Below are positions 3,540-9,623 of a stretch of 39,366 nt of DNA, piece after piece (position 1 is the stretch's first letter; every line of letters begins with the position of its first letter). Location: assembly GCA_902766435.1 (NCBI GenBank), contig CACXDM010000001.1:1-39366 (forward strand), given 5' to 3'. The notes under the pieces were generated by a model that ran no database searches, was not told the DNA's origin, and saw only the letters and a list, made by a program, of their open reading frames with translations. Made by a program: the position numbers and the translations under genes. Origin of the DNA: an uncultured Erysipelotrichaceae bacterium (GTDB lineage: Bacteria; Bacillota_I; Bacilli_A; Erysipelotrichales; Erysipelotrichaceae).

Positions 3540-3585
3540 CATGCTTAAAAAGCATGAATAAAAGAGACAGTTATTTCTGTCTCTT
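3540..3585 (-). terminator. Terminator hairpin of the GH1 gene at 3599-5071, next to a second palindrome
   Basis: AAGAGACAG (3562-3570) pairs perfectly with CTGTCTCTT (3577-3585) and on the minus strand is followed by TTTTATT. Directly beyond is CATGCTTAAAAAGCATG (3540-3556), a seven-base-pair stem with a three-base loop. The first stem is the terminator. The second could extend it, or be an operator for the next gene, whose start is 75 bases further on. Confidence 0.75.
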
Positions 3586-3598
3586 CCATTCGTATTCT

Positions 3599-5077
<1,479 letters not shown>

Positions 5078-5105: not shown

Positions 5106-5321
5106 TCACCGTGTCGAATCCCGTTCAATAAGGGATACGCTGATGACATTTTCCTTCTGTACTTCTTTTCCTTCAATCAGATCAAGAAGAATCCCGATAA
5201 ACTCTTCACTGTTCTGCAGATGTCTGCTTTCTGCTTTTCCTTTTTGCAGAAACTTCATGTTTTCATCCATCACAGCATACTTGACAGATGAACCGCCGAC
5301 ATCAATCACAAAGTACTCCAT
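5106..5321 (-). pseudogene. Remnant: N-terminus of a ROK sugar kinase joined in frame to the C-terminal tail of a LacI-type repressor
   Basis: A 71-codon frame with a good ribosome site (AAGGAG, 7 bases before ATG). Residues 1 to about 45 (MEYFVIDVGGSSVKYAV onward) match the opening of ROK-family kinases such as beta-glucoside kinase, including the DxGGSSVK phosphate-binding turn. The last 25 or so residues (DLIEGKEVQKENVISVSLIE, then RDSTR and stop) look like the extreme C-terminus of LacI/GalR repressors, which typically end with a LIERxST motif. Full kinases are about 290-300 residues and repressors about 330, so about 220 kinase codons and about 300 repressor codons are gone. The likely cause is one in-frame deletion between two adjacent genes in the same direction. 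The product would have no sugar site or DNA-binding domain. It could instead be an uncharacterised small protein, but the two-ended resemblance argues otherwise. Seen: motifs and length. Inferred: the deletion. Confidence 0.7.
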
Positions 5322-5334
5322 GCCTTTTCTCCTT

Positions 5335-5550
5335 TCACTCAGCTTTGCCGAGACTGTAGATCAGCCAGTCAATATGCCGGATTTCATCTTCCTTCATGTG
5401 AATTTCCGCAAGCAGAGATTCCCTGCCTTCATGAAGCAGTTCCTTTGCCTTCGGATAATTGCCGGTTTTCACACACGCCCTGATTTCCTTCTGACGCATT
5501 TCCGGCAGTCCGGTTTCTTCAACCGCTGTAACAATCATTTCTTTTCTCAT
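5335..5550 (-). CDS. Small charged helical protein of unknown function
   Basis: A 71-residue protein rich in Glu, Lys, Arg and Leu, with no Cys pattern, signal peptide or membrane segment apart from one conserved Cys (RACVKTG). It reads as two or three helices, the last one (KELLHEGRESLLAEIHMKED) having the heptad spacing of a short coiled coil. It lies 13 bases upstream of the ROK-LacI remnant and is first in the operon ending with the GH1 gene at 3599. I do not recognise a named family; similar small helical proteins do occur beside sugar-utilisation genes of Bacillota, so a regulatory or adaptor role is possible but not shown. There is no clear Shine-Dalgarno before the ATG at 5550 and the promoter -10 box ends only 9 bases upstream, so the transcript may be leaderless or the fifth-codon ATG (5538) may be used. 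Confidence 0.65.
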   Translation of the reverse strand: MRKEMIVTAVEETGLPEMRQKEIRACVKTGNYPKAKELLHEGRESLLAEIHMKEDEIRHIDWLIYSLGKAE

Positions 5551-5559
5551 CGCACTTTT

Positions 5560-5588
5560 ACTATAGAAGCAGTTTTGAGATATTTGAA
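5560..5588 (-). promoter_or_regulatory. Promoter of the small-protein/remnant/GH1 operon
   Basis: On the minus strand TTCAAA (5588-5583) and TATAGT (5565-5560) are separated by exactly 17 bases. The predicted start site falls within a few bases of the ATG at 5550. The region between this and the divergent LysR gene holds AT-rich dyads (GAGATA...TATCTC, 5577-5606), the kind of place where a LysR regulator binds. Confidence 0.6.
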
Positions 5589-5645: not shown

Positions 5646-6527
5646 ATGGAACTCCGTGTACTCCGTTATTTTGTTCAGGTTGCGCGTGATGAAAGCATCA
5701 CAAAGGCGGCTCAGGCCCTGCATATTTCACAGCCGACACTGTCAAAACAGATCAAGGATCTGGAAGCCGAACTGGGTGTAAAGCTGTTTGTGCGCACCAA
5801 TTACTCCGTCCGTCTGACAGAAGACGGAATCAGACTCCGTCTGAGAGCTGAGGATATACTTGCCATGGCCGATCAGACCATGAATGAATTCACACGGAAG
5901 GACAGCACTGTTTCGGGAGAACTGCGGATCGGCGCTGCCGAAGGTGAAGCGGTCAGACTGCTCGGAAAAGTCATGCATGAACTGTCGGAACCTTACCCGG
6001 GAATCACCTATCACATGTATGCCGGTGATACGGAGATGCTGAAGGAAAAGCTCGACAGCGGTTTTCTTGATTTCCTGCTGATCGTGGAGGATCCGGATCG
6101 GCGCAGATACCAGAGTATCGAACTGCCGGTGGATGATGTATGGGGTCTGGTGATGAAAAGAGAAGATCCGATGGCAGAAAAAAAGACCATCAGTCCTGAT
6201 GATCTTACAGGTCTCCCTTTGCTGATATCACGTCAGGCAATGCATCAGGATCTTGCCCGTCTTTTCGGGCCGAACGTGCACCGTATGCATTTCGCAGCCA
6301 CATATGATCTGTGTCACAACGCTTCTCTTCTGGTGCAGGAGGGATTCGGTTATCTTCTTACATTCGATCATCTGGTTGATCTTTCCGAACGGTCCGGTCT
6401 TGTATTCCGGCCGCTCAGCCCTGCTCTGCGGACACGTTCCCACCTGATTTACAGAAAGTATCAGATCTTTTCCGAAGCAGCCGAACTGTTTCTGAAAACA
6501 CTTGAGAATCATCTGGCCGCAGAATGA
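5646..6527 (+). CDS. LysR-family transcriptional regulator
   Basis: A 293-residue regulator of standard LysR length. Residues 1-60 form the winged helix-turn-helix (MELRVLRYFVQVARDESITK, then AAQALHISQPTLSKQIKDLE), followed by a linker helix and the two-lobed effector domain from about residue 90. AGAGGT is 6 bases before the ATG. It diverges from the operon 5550-3599, so control of the small protein/GH1 operon is likely; the effector is unknown. A nucleotidyltransferase gene follows 25 bases downstream with its own good ribosome site. A second LysR gene of similar length and N-terminus lies at 14465-15346, probably a paralogue. Confidence 0.95.
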   Translation: MELRVLRYFVQVARDESITKAAQALHISQPTLSKQIKDLEAELGVKLFVRTNYSVRLTEDGIRLRLRAEDILAMADQTMNEFTRKDSTVSGELRIGAAEGEAVRLLGKVMHELSEPYPGITYHMYAGDTEMLKEKLDSGFLDFLLIVEDPDRRRYQSIELPVDDVWGLVMKREDPMAEKKTISPDDLTGLPLLISRQAMHQDLARLFGPNVHRMHFAATYDLCHNASLLVQEGFGYLLTFDHLVDLSERSGLVFRPLSPALRTRSHLIYRKYQIFSEAAELFLKTLENHLAAE

Positions 6528-7346: not shown

Positions 7347-7387
7347 ACGTATCCGTACGGATTATTCCGTCAGATACGCTTTTTTTT
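7347..7387. terminator. Bidirectional terminator between nucleotidyltransferase and IDI-GH13 genes
   Basis: CGTATC (7348-7353) pairs with GATACG (7373-7378), with inner ACGGA/TCCGT arms, six A on the left and eight T on the right, so it can end transcription on both strands. The stop codon of the minus-strand gene (7386-7388) lies inside the right T run. Confidence 0.85.
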
Positions 7388-9623
7388 ACAGTTCCCTCAT
7401 CCTGAATACGATCGCCTGATACGGCTTCAGTCTGAGCTTCATTCCATCCATGTCAGCCTCTTCATAATTGTTGATGAGTATATCGGAGCCTTTCAGCCAG
7501 TTCGGCAGAATACAGGAAGCCGGACGCCTGCTGAAATTACCGATGACATACAGTTTTCTGTTTTTCCATGTACGGCTGTAGGCAATGATCTGTCTGCTCT
7601 GCTTTTCGTATTCCTCTGTCTTACCGTATACGGCAGTTTCATTTTCCTTACGCAGCGCAATCAGCTTCTGATAAAACCGGTAAACGGATTTATCACTCTC
7701 CATGTCCTTTTTGATATTGATGCTGCGGTAAAGAGGATTGACACACTGCCACGGTTCACAGCCCTTGTTGAAGCCGCCGTTTACCGAATCATCCCATGCC
7801 ATCGGAACCCGGGCATGATCCCTTGCGCCATAGCGGATAAAGCGGAAGGCAAGCGGTGAAGGAATACCGTAGCTGACCATCAGGTCATGCACGAAGTGAC
7901 TGACCGGATCCTTCATTTCGTCCATGTTCTTAAACGGTGTGTTGACCAGTCCCGCTTCCTCACCCATATAGATAAACGGCGTTCCGAATCCCATAAAGGT
8001 AATCACCGCCAGCATTGTCGCCGCCTCATAGCGGTATTTTGCTGTGCTGATGGAGAAACGGCTGATGCTGCGGACATTGTCATGATTCTCAAGAACCAGG
8101 GTATTCCATCCGCCCTCATAATTCATGATCTGAGGCTGAAGCAGTCCTTTTTTAAACTGCAGAAGATCAAACGGCTTCCGGAAGAATTTCTTACCCCTGA
8201 TATTGTCGGAATCAAGATGTCCGAAACTGAAGATCGCATCGAGCTCTTTGTTTTCAGCCCTGACATATTCACGGGCATTCCTTTCGGAAGGATGGAAGGA
8301 TTCACCCACCGTGAAGGTGTCATACAGTGAGAATGCCTTTTCATACATCTCCTTCAGGAATTCATGCATACGCGGCCCGTCCACATAGTACGGCGCGCCT
8401 TTCTGGAATGAATCCTTATTATGATCATCTTCAAACGGATACACTTTTGAAAACATGTTGAAGACATCAAAGCGGAAGCCGTCCACTCCCTTTTCCAGCC
8501 AGAAATTCAGAATATCAATGATCTCTTTGCGGACAGCGGGATTCTCCCAGTTCAGATCTGCCTGTTCCACACAGAACAAATGCAGATAAAACTCGTCCGT
8601 ATCGCCGATCCTCTCCCAGGCGCTGCCGGTAAAGGTGGATTCCCAGTTGGTCGGCGGAAGCAGTTTGTCTCCCTCTTTTCTGCCTTTGCGGATAATATAA
8701 TAATCCCTGTACGGGGAATCGGGAGATGAAAGCGCCTCGCGGAACCAGCGGTGTTCGGTGGAGGTATGATTGACAACCATATCCATGATGACTTTCAGAC
8801 CTCGTTTATGGCACTCTTCGAGAAGTCTTTCAAAATCTGCCATTGTGCCGAACTTTTCATCAATTGCCCGGTAATCACTGATGTCGTAACCATAGTCATA
8901 ATCCGGTGACTGATACAATGGTGAAAACCATACTGCCGTTACACCAAGGTCCTTAATATAATCCAGTTTTGAAATAATGCCTTCAATATCGCCCCATCCG
9001 TCATTGTCGGAATCCATGAAGCTGAAGGGATAGATCTGATAAACTACTGCTTCCTTAAACCATTCCGTTCTCATGTTATTTTTCCCCATATACTTTTCCG
9101 CCAGTCTGTAAGCAGGAAGAAACCAGGCCGAAAATGTTTCCGGATATTCCTGTGTTTCCTCTTCAAGCTCTTTTCTTGTGATCCAGCGCAGTTCATTGAT
9201 TTCCTCAGGATTGAATGCGTTCAGCGGAATCTCATCCCTGTCTGCCTTCAGCAGGAATACATGATCCACCTCATGTTCGGAAAGACCGTCAAACTTCGCT
9301 TCGTAGGTAAATCTGCCGCATTCCCTCAGCTCAGCATCCTTCAGTGCCATCAGATCAATTCCCGTTTCAAAACGGAGTCTTTCTTCTGCAGCCTTCTTTG
9401 TTTCTTCGCCGGCTCTTGGATGTGAGCAGCATGTATTTGACCAGAGACCGCCGGAATGATATTTCCCGTATGCCCGCCTCTGCAGAAGGACCTCATCCCT
9501 GAGAGGATCATAGACAAAGACCGAAAACGCCCGGTGCAGCTGTCCCTTAATGTGTGTCTCCATCTTTTCACCTGTGCCGGTAACATTGTCATTCTCATCG
9601 ACCCAGATCAGCATTTCTTCCAT
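7386..9623 (-). CDS. Fusion of type I isopentenyl-diphosphate isomerase (Nudix) and GH13 alpha-glucosidase
   Basis: One open frame of 745 codons. Residues 1-183 are a complete type I IDI: metal-binding H24 and H30 (in GQLHRAFS), C66 in WSNTCCSHP, the Nudix helix AAEERLRFETG, and E116/E118 in SEHEVDHVF. IDI interconverts isopentenyl and dimethylallyl diphosphate. Residues 184-745 are a complete GH13 enzyme starting MRTEWFKEAVVYQIYP, with a calcium-site loop DSDNDGWGD, DMVVNH, nucleophile D386 (GFRFDV), acid/base E441 (VGESF) and H514-D515 (ENHDN). Val after the nucleophile is typical of oligo-1,6-glucosidases; trehalose-6-phosphate hydrolase is an alternative. The two domains join with no linker. 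At the junction the minus strand reads GGGGAAAAATAACATG; with one extra A the isomerase would stop at TAA just before the GH13 ATG. So this is either a real fusion or two overlapping genes joined by a one-base indel. MATE gene upstream by 14 bases. Confidence 0.8.
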   Translation of the reverse strand: MEEMLIWVDENDNVTGTGEKMETHIKGQLHRAFSVFVYDPLRDEVLLQRRAYGKYHSGGLWSNTCCSHPRAGEETKKAAEERLRFETGIDLMALKDAELRECGRFTYEAKFDGLSEHEVDHVFLLKADRDEIPLNAFNPEEINELRWITRKELEEETQEYPETFSAWFLPAYRLAEKYMGKNNMRTEWFKEAVVYQIYPFSFMDSDNDGWGDIEGIISKLDYIKDLGVTAVWFSPLYQSPDYDYGYDISDYRAIDEKFGTMADFERLLEECHKRGLKVIMDMVVNHTSTEHRWFREALSSPDSPYRDYYIIRKGRKEGDKLLPPTNWESTFTGSAWERIGDTDEFYLHLFCVEQADLNWENPAVRKEIIDILNFWLEKGVDGFRFDVFNMFSKVYPFEDDHNKDSFQKGAPYYVDGPRMHEFLKEMYEKAFSLYDTFTVGESFHPSERNAREYVRAENKELDAIFSFGHLDSDNIRGKKFFRKPFDLLQFKKGLLQPQIMNYEGGWNTLVLENHDNVRSISRFSISTAKYRYEAATMLAVITFMGFGTPFIYMGEEAGLVNTPFKNMDEMKDPVSHFVHDLMVSYGIPSPLAFRFIRYGARDHARVPMAWDDSVNGGFNKGCEPWQCVNPLYRSINIKKDMESDKSVYRFYQKLIALRKENETAVYGKTEEYEKQSRQIIAYSRTWKNRKLYVIGNFSRRPASCILPNWLKGSDILINNYEEADMDGMKLRLKPYQAIVFRMREL

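Follow-up and report, generated by a model that had tools for sequence, protein, structure and literature searches.

An in-frame ROK kinase/LacI-like open reading frame as the probable scar of a deletion inside a sugar-catabolism operon of Erysipelotrichaceae

Deletions that occur during gene loss can fuse what they leave behind: in the spheroid body of Rhopalodia gibba, a deletion removed a gene and fused the non-adjacent open reading frames (ORFs) flanking it in frame, giving sbl0010 (PMC2246100). In the model of border-induced selection, as applied to human introns, neutral sequence lying between conserved borders persists despite deletions (PMC9748784). Here we describe a chimeric ORF of 71 codons, with the start of a ROK-family sugar kinase gene and the tail of a LacI-like gene, in a stretch of 39,366 nucleotides (hereafter the window; contig CACXDM010000001.1) from the draft genome of an uncultured, rumen-type Erysipelotrichaceae bacterium (GCA_902766435.1). 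The ORF is very probably what a single deletion of about 4.14 kb left behind in a sugar-catabolism operon, and an ordinary young relic.

Two parent genes in one 71-codon frame

The chimeric ORF (5106..5321, reverse strand) runs from an ATG at 5321 to a TGA at 5106 and translates to MEYFVIDVGGSSVKYAVMDENMKFLQKGKAESRHLQNSEEFIGILLDLIEGKEVQKENVISVSLIERDSTR. Its codons 1-42 (5196..5321, reverse strand) derive from the 5′ end of a BglK-like ROK gene and are 76% identical to the ROK of genome G110 and 70% to that of G016; codons 44-71 and the stop (5106..5192, reverse strand) align with the 3′ end of the relatives' gene for a sugar-binding, LacI-like protein that has no helix-turn-helix (HTH). Searched against relatives, residues 1-50 align with ROK kinases of the same genus at 70-76% identity (E-values down to 2.8e-21); residues 38-71 are 79% identical to the C-terminal end of another protein in G016, LacI-like and 273 aa long; and residues 44-71 are 86-89% identical to their counterparts in RUG12097 and S2M_St_7; the tail alone, used as the query, finds the relatives' 273-aa protein with an E-value of 3.7e-12. 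Generic profile libraries recognise both ends weakly and leave the tail undecided: Pfam ROK gives 17.6 bits on the 71-aa ORF, under its gathering cut-off of 22.9 (an intact relative scores 109.3), and Peripla_BP_3 (PF13377) gives 13.5 bits on the tail alone against a cut-off of 26.5, only the C-terminal end of the domain being present. The preliminary description had seen in the ORF the start of a ROK gene joined in frame to the tail of a LacI-family one, and had proposed separate Pfam searches of the halves; the generic profiles stay below their cut-offs, and it is the matches to close relatives that assign each half and bear the reading out. By alignment, the halves stem from two different genes, and chance resemblance is excluded because both parents sit in one syntenic operon in the relatives (see below).

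The chimera keeps little of what makes either parent work. DVGGSSVK at residues 7-14 is the DxGGSSxK phosphate loop, aligned with that of intact ROK kinases, and the frame leaves ROK at codon 42/43: the catalytic aspartate and the second ATP-binding loop (GTGxGG) are absent from the chimera in the alignment, the latter (IGTGLGG) lying in the G016 kinase downstream of the part retained here. There is no HTH in the chimera and none in its 273-aa LacI-like parent, so no classical repressor has gone, contrary to the loss of a LacI repressor first supposed. The ribosome-binding site was rightly described as good: it is an AAAGGAG (5329..5335, reverse strand) ending 7 nt before the ATG, and is inherited from the kinase gene. 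In a plasmid collection, a DNA-level search returned nothing past 69 nt of GH1 start.

Among the parents, the kinase of genome G115 passes Pfam ROK (PF00480) and scores highest on BglK (NF042998; 119.7 bits, far under the curated cut-off of 550, which makes the substrate assignment putative). We did not adopt an allose-pathway reading of the operon (ROK, rpiB, and rpe): the kinase scores higher on BglK than on allose kinase, and the product of the rpe-like gene clears the cut-off for ribulose-phosphate epimerase but not that for the allulose-6-phosphate enzyme. The LacI-like parent (273-274 aa) passes both Peripla_BP_3 and Peripla_BP_1 (PF13377, PF00532); its match to the LacI-family profile begins only at about position 59, and its start overlaps or abuts the rpe stop codon. 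An HTH-less LacI-type protein of this length, encoded right after rpiB and rpe, is kept genus-wide and recurs in another family of this order (G042), with genes at L045:1073-1894, L044:13594-14415, L078:12990-13811, L048:2177-2998, and L053:781-1593. It may serve as a sensor or binding protein for sugars in the cytoplasm; a literature search for LacI-like proteins without a DNA-binding domain in such operons found nothing pertinent.

The ancestral operon and the extent of the deletion

The intact operon is found on a single contig (L078) of the same-genus genome G115, in the order ROK kinase, GH1a, rpiB, rpe, LacI-like gene, and GH1b; the same order, whole or partial and in some cases split between contigs, occurs in G014, G015 (judged to be RUG087), G016, G109, and G110 (judged to be S2M_St_7). 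The relatives on public record are uncultured Erysipelotrichaceae. The stretch bounded by the kinase start and the LacI-like stop measures 4355 bp in G115 and 216 bp in the window, so that 4139 bp net have been lost. On the upstream side, the window has a LysR-family regulator gene and a small ORF before the kinase start, as do G015, G016, and G110; on the downstream side, the LacI-like tail is succeeded by GH1b, the arrangement also seen in G016, G109, and G115, and this flanking gene is 93-94% identical between the window and its relatives.

The LysR-family gene (5646..6527, forward strand), syntenic in relatives, is divergent and flanks the operon. The small ORF (5335..5550, reverse strand; also L060:5566-5781 and L046:3037-3250) encodes about 70 aa with the pattern TAVEETGLP...LLAEIHxKEDEIRHIDWLIYxLGR, lies between LysR and the kinase start, and shares 63-70% identity with its counterparts in G110, G015, G016, and RUG12097. 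It matches no Pfam family above cut-off; its dN/dS is 0.12-0.36 across relatives and it stands before the kinase in LysR-type loci, and it is probably a real small gene tied to the LysR of the same locus.

Comparison with the relatives shows that the ancestral operon, with LysR divergent at its head, was ordered small ORF, ROK kinase, GH1a, rpiB, rpe, HTH-less LacI-like gene, and GH1b. The deletion began at kinase codon 42/43 and stopped about 28 codons short of the LacI-like stop; it removed five functions (the kinase, GH1a, rpiB, rpe, and the sugar-binding protein) and moved GH1b near the 5′ end of the operon. The two gene ends would have met in frame by chance, at odds of about one in three, leaving a 71-codon passenger frame; because the kinase and the LacI-like protein are encoded by separate genes, such a join needs no special cause. 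The intact G115 operon supports a single deletion as first proposed, and aligning the locus with relatives, as was also suggested, does yield intact ROK and LacI-like genes and the deletion endpoints; but the parents were not the adjacent pair envisaged, since GH1a, rpiB, and rpe stood between them and were lost too. The draft genome, searched for ROK, rpe, and LacI-like genes, has no orthologue or other close copy of these three: the best matches besides the chimera reach 37%, 37%, and 26% identity, respectively, the rpe match being presumably a housekeeping gene.

Codon alignment to both parents brackets the junction: codon 42 (ATC) is still kinase-like, codons 44-46 (ATT CTT CTT) are LacI-like, and codon 43 (GGG; 5193..5195, reverse strand) could come from either parent. 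Microhomology at the junction amounts to at most 1-2 nt, as in illegitimate recombination. A crossover by microhomology at a shared L.DL motif is ruled out, as codons 44-46 (ILL) are already LacI-like and the junction must lie upstream.

Other scars of the operon and the status of the frame

We also found that the same operon has been eroded in other species. In RUG12097 (L060; the same sequence as G116, L131), an out-of-frame scar before GH1b (L060:5803-6087) consists of six kinase codons, 48 nt of GH1a, and the last 71 or so codons of the LacI-like gene, beginning at about codon 203; its kinase ATG is out of frame, and the frame opened there closes after 22 codons, far short of GH1b. Compared with the window, RUG12097 retains a shorter piece of the kinase gene and a longer one of the LacI-like gene; neither deletion can therefore have arisen from the other. 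In G104, codons 1-92 of a PRD-type regulator gene (48% identical), which is the gene before the kinase in G014 and G109, run in frame into the LacI-like gene at about its codon 206, forming a chimera directly before GH1b (L129:5605-6039, reverse strand), with a frameshift and an in-frame stop after the fusion. GH1b is intact in RUG12097 and G104, as it is in the window. These scars were found with the LacI-like tail and GH1b as probes, and loci lacking those parts would escape detection.

Three further loci were observed along the way. S2M_St_7 has, besides intact operon genes elsewhere, an orphan scrap (L062:4505-4678) in which a piece of rpe is joined to a LacI-like tail, between TetR-type and XRE-type regulator genes. 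The GH1b orthologue of G093 (L130:2615-3925, reverse strand) is missing its first 78 residues and opens instead in unrelated upstream sequence. In the window itself, a 745-aa ORF (7386-9623, reverse strand) with an N-terminus like NUDIX/isopentenyl-diphosphate isomerase and a C-terminus like GH13 alpha-glucosidase is a possible further fusion.

The surviving GH1b (3599..5071, reverse strand) begins 34 nt past the chimera stop and has its own AAGGAG site. Its best solved relatives are 6wgd and 2xhy, it stays under the curated subfamily cut-offs, and its sequence resembles 6-phospho-beta-glucosidases, in agreement with the phospho-beta-glucosidase neighbour of the preliminary description. The same description held that this enzyme needs the product of the missing kinase, which our data do not support: the downstream GH1b need not be stranded, because the draft genome still encodes another BglK-like ROK kinase (161 bits; cut-off 550) and five PTS EIIC proteins above cut-off, one of them nearest to beta-glucoside IIABC but under that cut-off. 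A hairpin of 15 pairs resembling an intrinsic terminator (3556..3591, reverse strand) closes the unit, and a promoter-like site (5560..5588, reverse strand; a consensus match of 9/12) lies upstream of the small ORF, such sites being no more frequent in the window than in shuffled sequence. The sequence makes a single transcription unit plausible; it would probably begin ahead of the small ORF, take in the chimera and GH1b, and end at the hairpin.

This arrangement bears on an unlikely alternative to the relic, in which the peptide itself is irrelevant and the translated frame is kept because ribosomes travelling over the operon leader would shield the mRNA and thereby sustain the expression of GH1b. 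A single unit with a promoter-like site, small ORF, chimera, GH1b, and strong terminator-like hairpin would suit it, as would the retention of an upstream gene start and of GH1b in all three eroded loci; but the promoter-like site is no better than those in shuffles, the kinase-start frame of RUG12097 ends well short of GH1b, and GH1b does not depend on the chimera for a ribosome site. Coupling by reinitiation is nearly gone at about 20 nt (PMC10666635), and we judged translational coupling from the chimera to GH1b unlikely across the larger gap found here. A further combined reading is also very unlikely: that the operon was repeatedly eroded from inside in parallel lineages, each event moving GH1b near the operon's 5′ end, because selection favoured expressing GH1b alone, and that the in-frame scar of the window is now translated as a retained small protein.

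Whether the frame might be kept for its protein alone can be weighed from its age. The 71-codon frame has neither a stop nor a frameshift, its ribosome site and DVGGSS are intact, only three residues (M22, Q26, and I64) are unique to the window among the aligned sequences, and these differences are conservative; by pairwise substitution counts, both halves evolve no faster than in intact relatives. In a neutral simulation, a count of three amino-acid changes or fewer is improbable (P ~0.05) once divergence exceeds 0.05 substitutions per site. At synonymous sites, GH1b and LysR have diverged from G016 by 1.5-1.7, near saturation, so the window lineage itself would have accumulated roughly 0.7-0.8 per site. 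If the scar is neutral, it has to be young and would date to roughly the last 7% of the lineage, a figure made rough by the near-saturated synonymous sites. Purifying selection, or a recently selected small protein, would show the same undecayed picture.

The preliminary description had left a choice between a decaying relic and a small protein retained for another use. The latter, for example for binding a partner or as a kinase fragment, could account for the open frame, the good ribosome site, and the lack of decay and of accelerated evolution, the same features that youth explains equally well; yet it is very unlikely. Conserved 71-residue orthologues, which had been named as grounds for refuting a chimeric relic, were not found: none of the 316 genomes of the order has a full-length orthologue of the fusion. 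Of the comparable fusions, that of RUG12097 is out of frame and that of G104 is broken; the chimera has no more than the beginning of a ROK nucleotide-binding domain and the final piece of a LacI domain; and AlphaFold, given the single sequence, predicts no confident fold (mean pLDDT 54). With the catalytic and second ATP-binding parts and the binding domain gone, the chimera most likely has no protein function. Because orthologues are lacking, comparable fusions are broken, catalytic parts are gone, and the fold is poor, the evidence favours the relic over the retained small protein. The scar would have persisted through its youth, and perhaps also because longer deletions would harm the 5′ end of the operon or the start of GH1b.

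A misassembly normally leaves the missing genes on other contigs and requires a long repeat at the junction; in this metagenome-derived draft, whose 223 contigs and 87.8% completeness invite the suspicion, the junction has no repeat long enough to mislead an assembler, the excised ROK, rpe, and LacI-like genes are on no other contig, and other species carry different deletions of the same operon, which makes an assembly error very unlikely, though it is the main technical caveat.

Comparison with known fusions and protein families

The locus is a clean case of a deletion creating a new ORF, one that gene-finding software would annotate as a small protein. With a different scar in each of three related species, it forms a small natural series for operon shrinkage, and the repeated erosion of one operon around a kept GH1b adds a small point of interest. 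The case also cautions against reading function into a frame, or a metabolic gap into a downstream gene.

Deletion-made fusions during gene loss are already known from sbl0010 (PMC2246100), of which the chimera is a new example: it is likewise an in-frame fusion of non-adjacent ORFs made by deletion. Both flanking ORFs are complete in sbl0010, whereas just 42 and about 28 codons of the parents remain here. Border-induced selection (PMC9748784) offers a possible reason why a scar would persist between the 5′ end of the operon and GH1b, its extension to this locus being our own. As for protein families, the first parent belongs to the ROK/BglK-like kinases (NF042998, PF00480), of which the chimera holds only the first 42 residues; the second parent matches the LacI/GalR sugar-binding domain (PF13377, PF00532) without the DNA-binding domain, and the chimera retains its last 28 or 29 residues.
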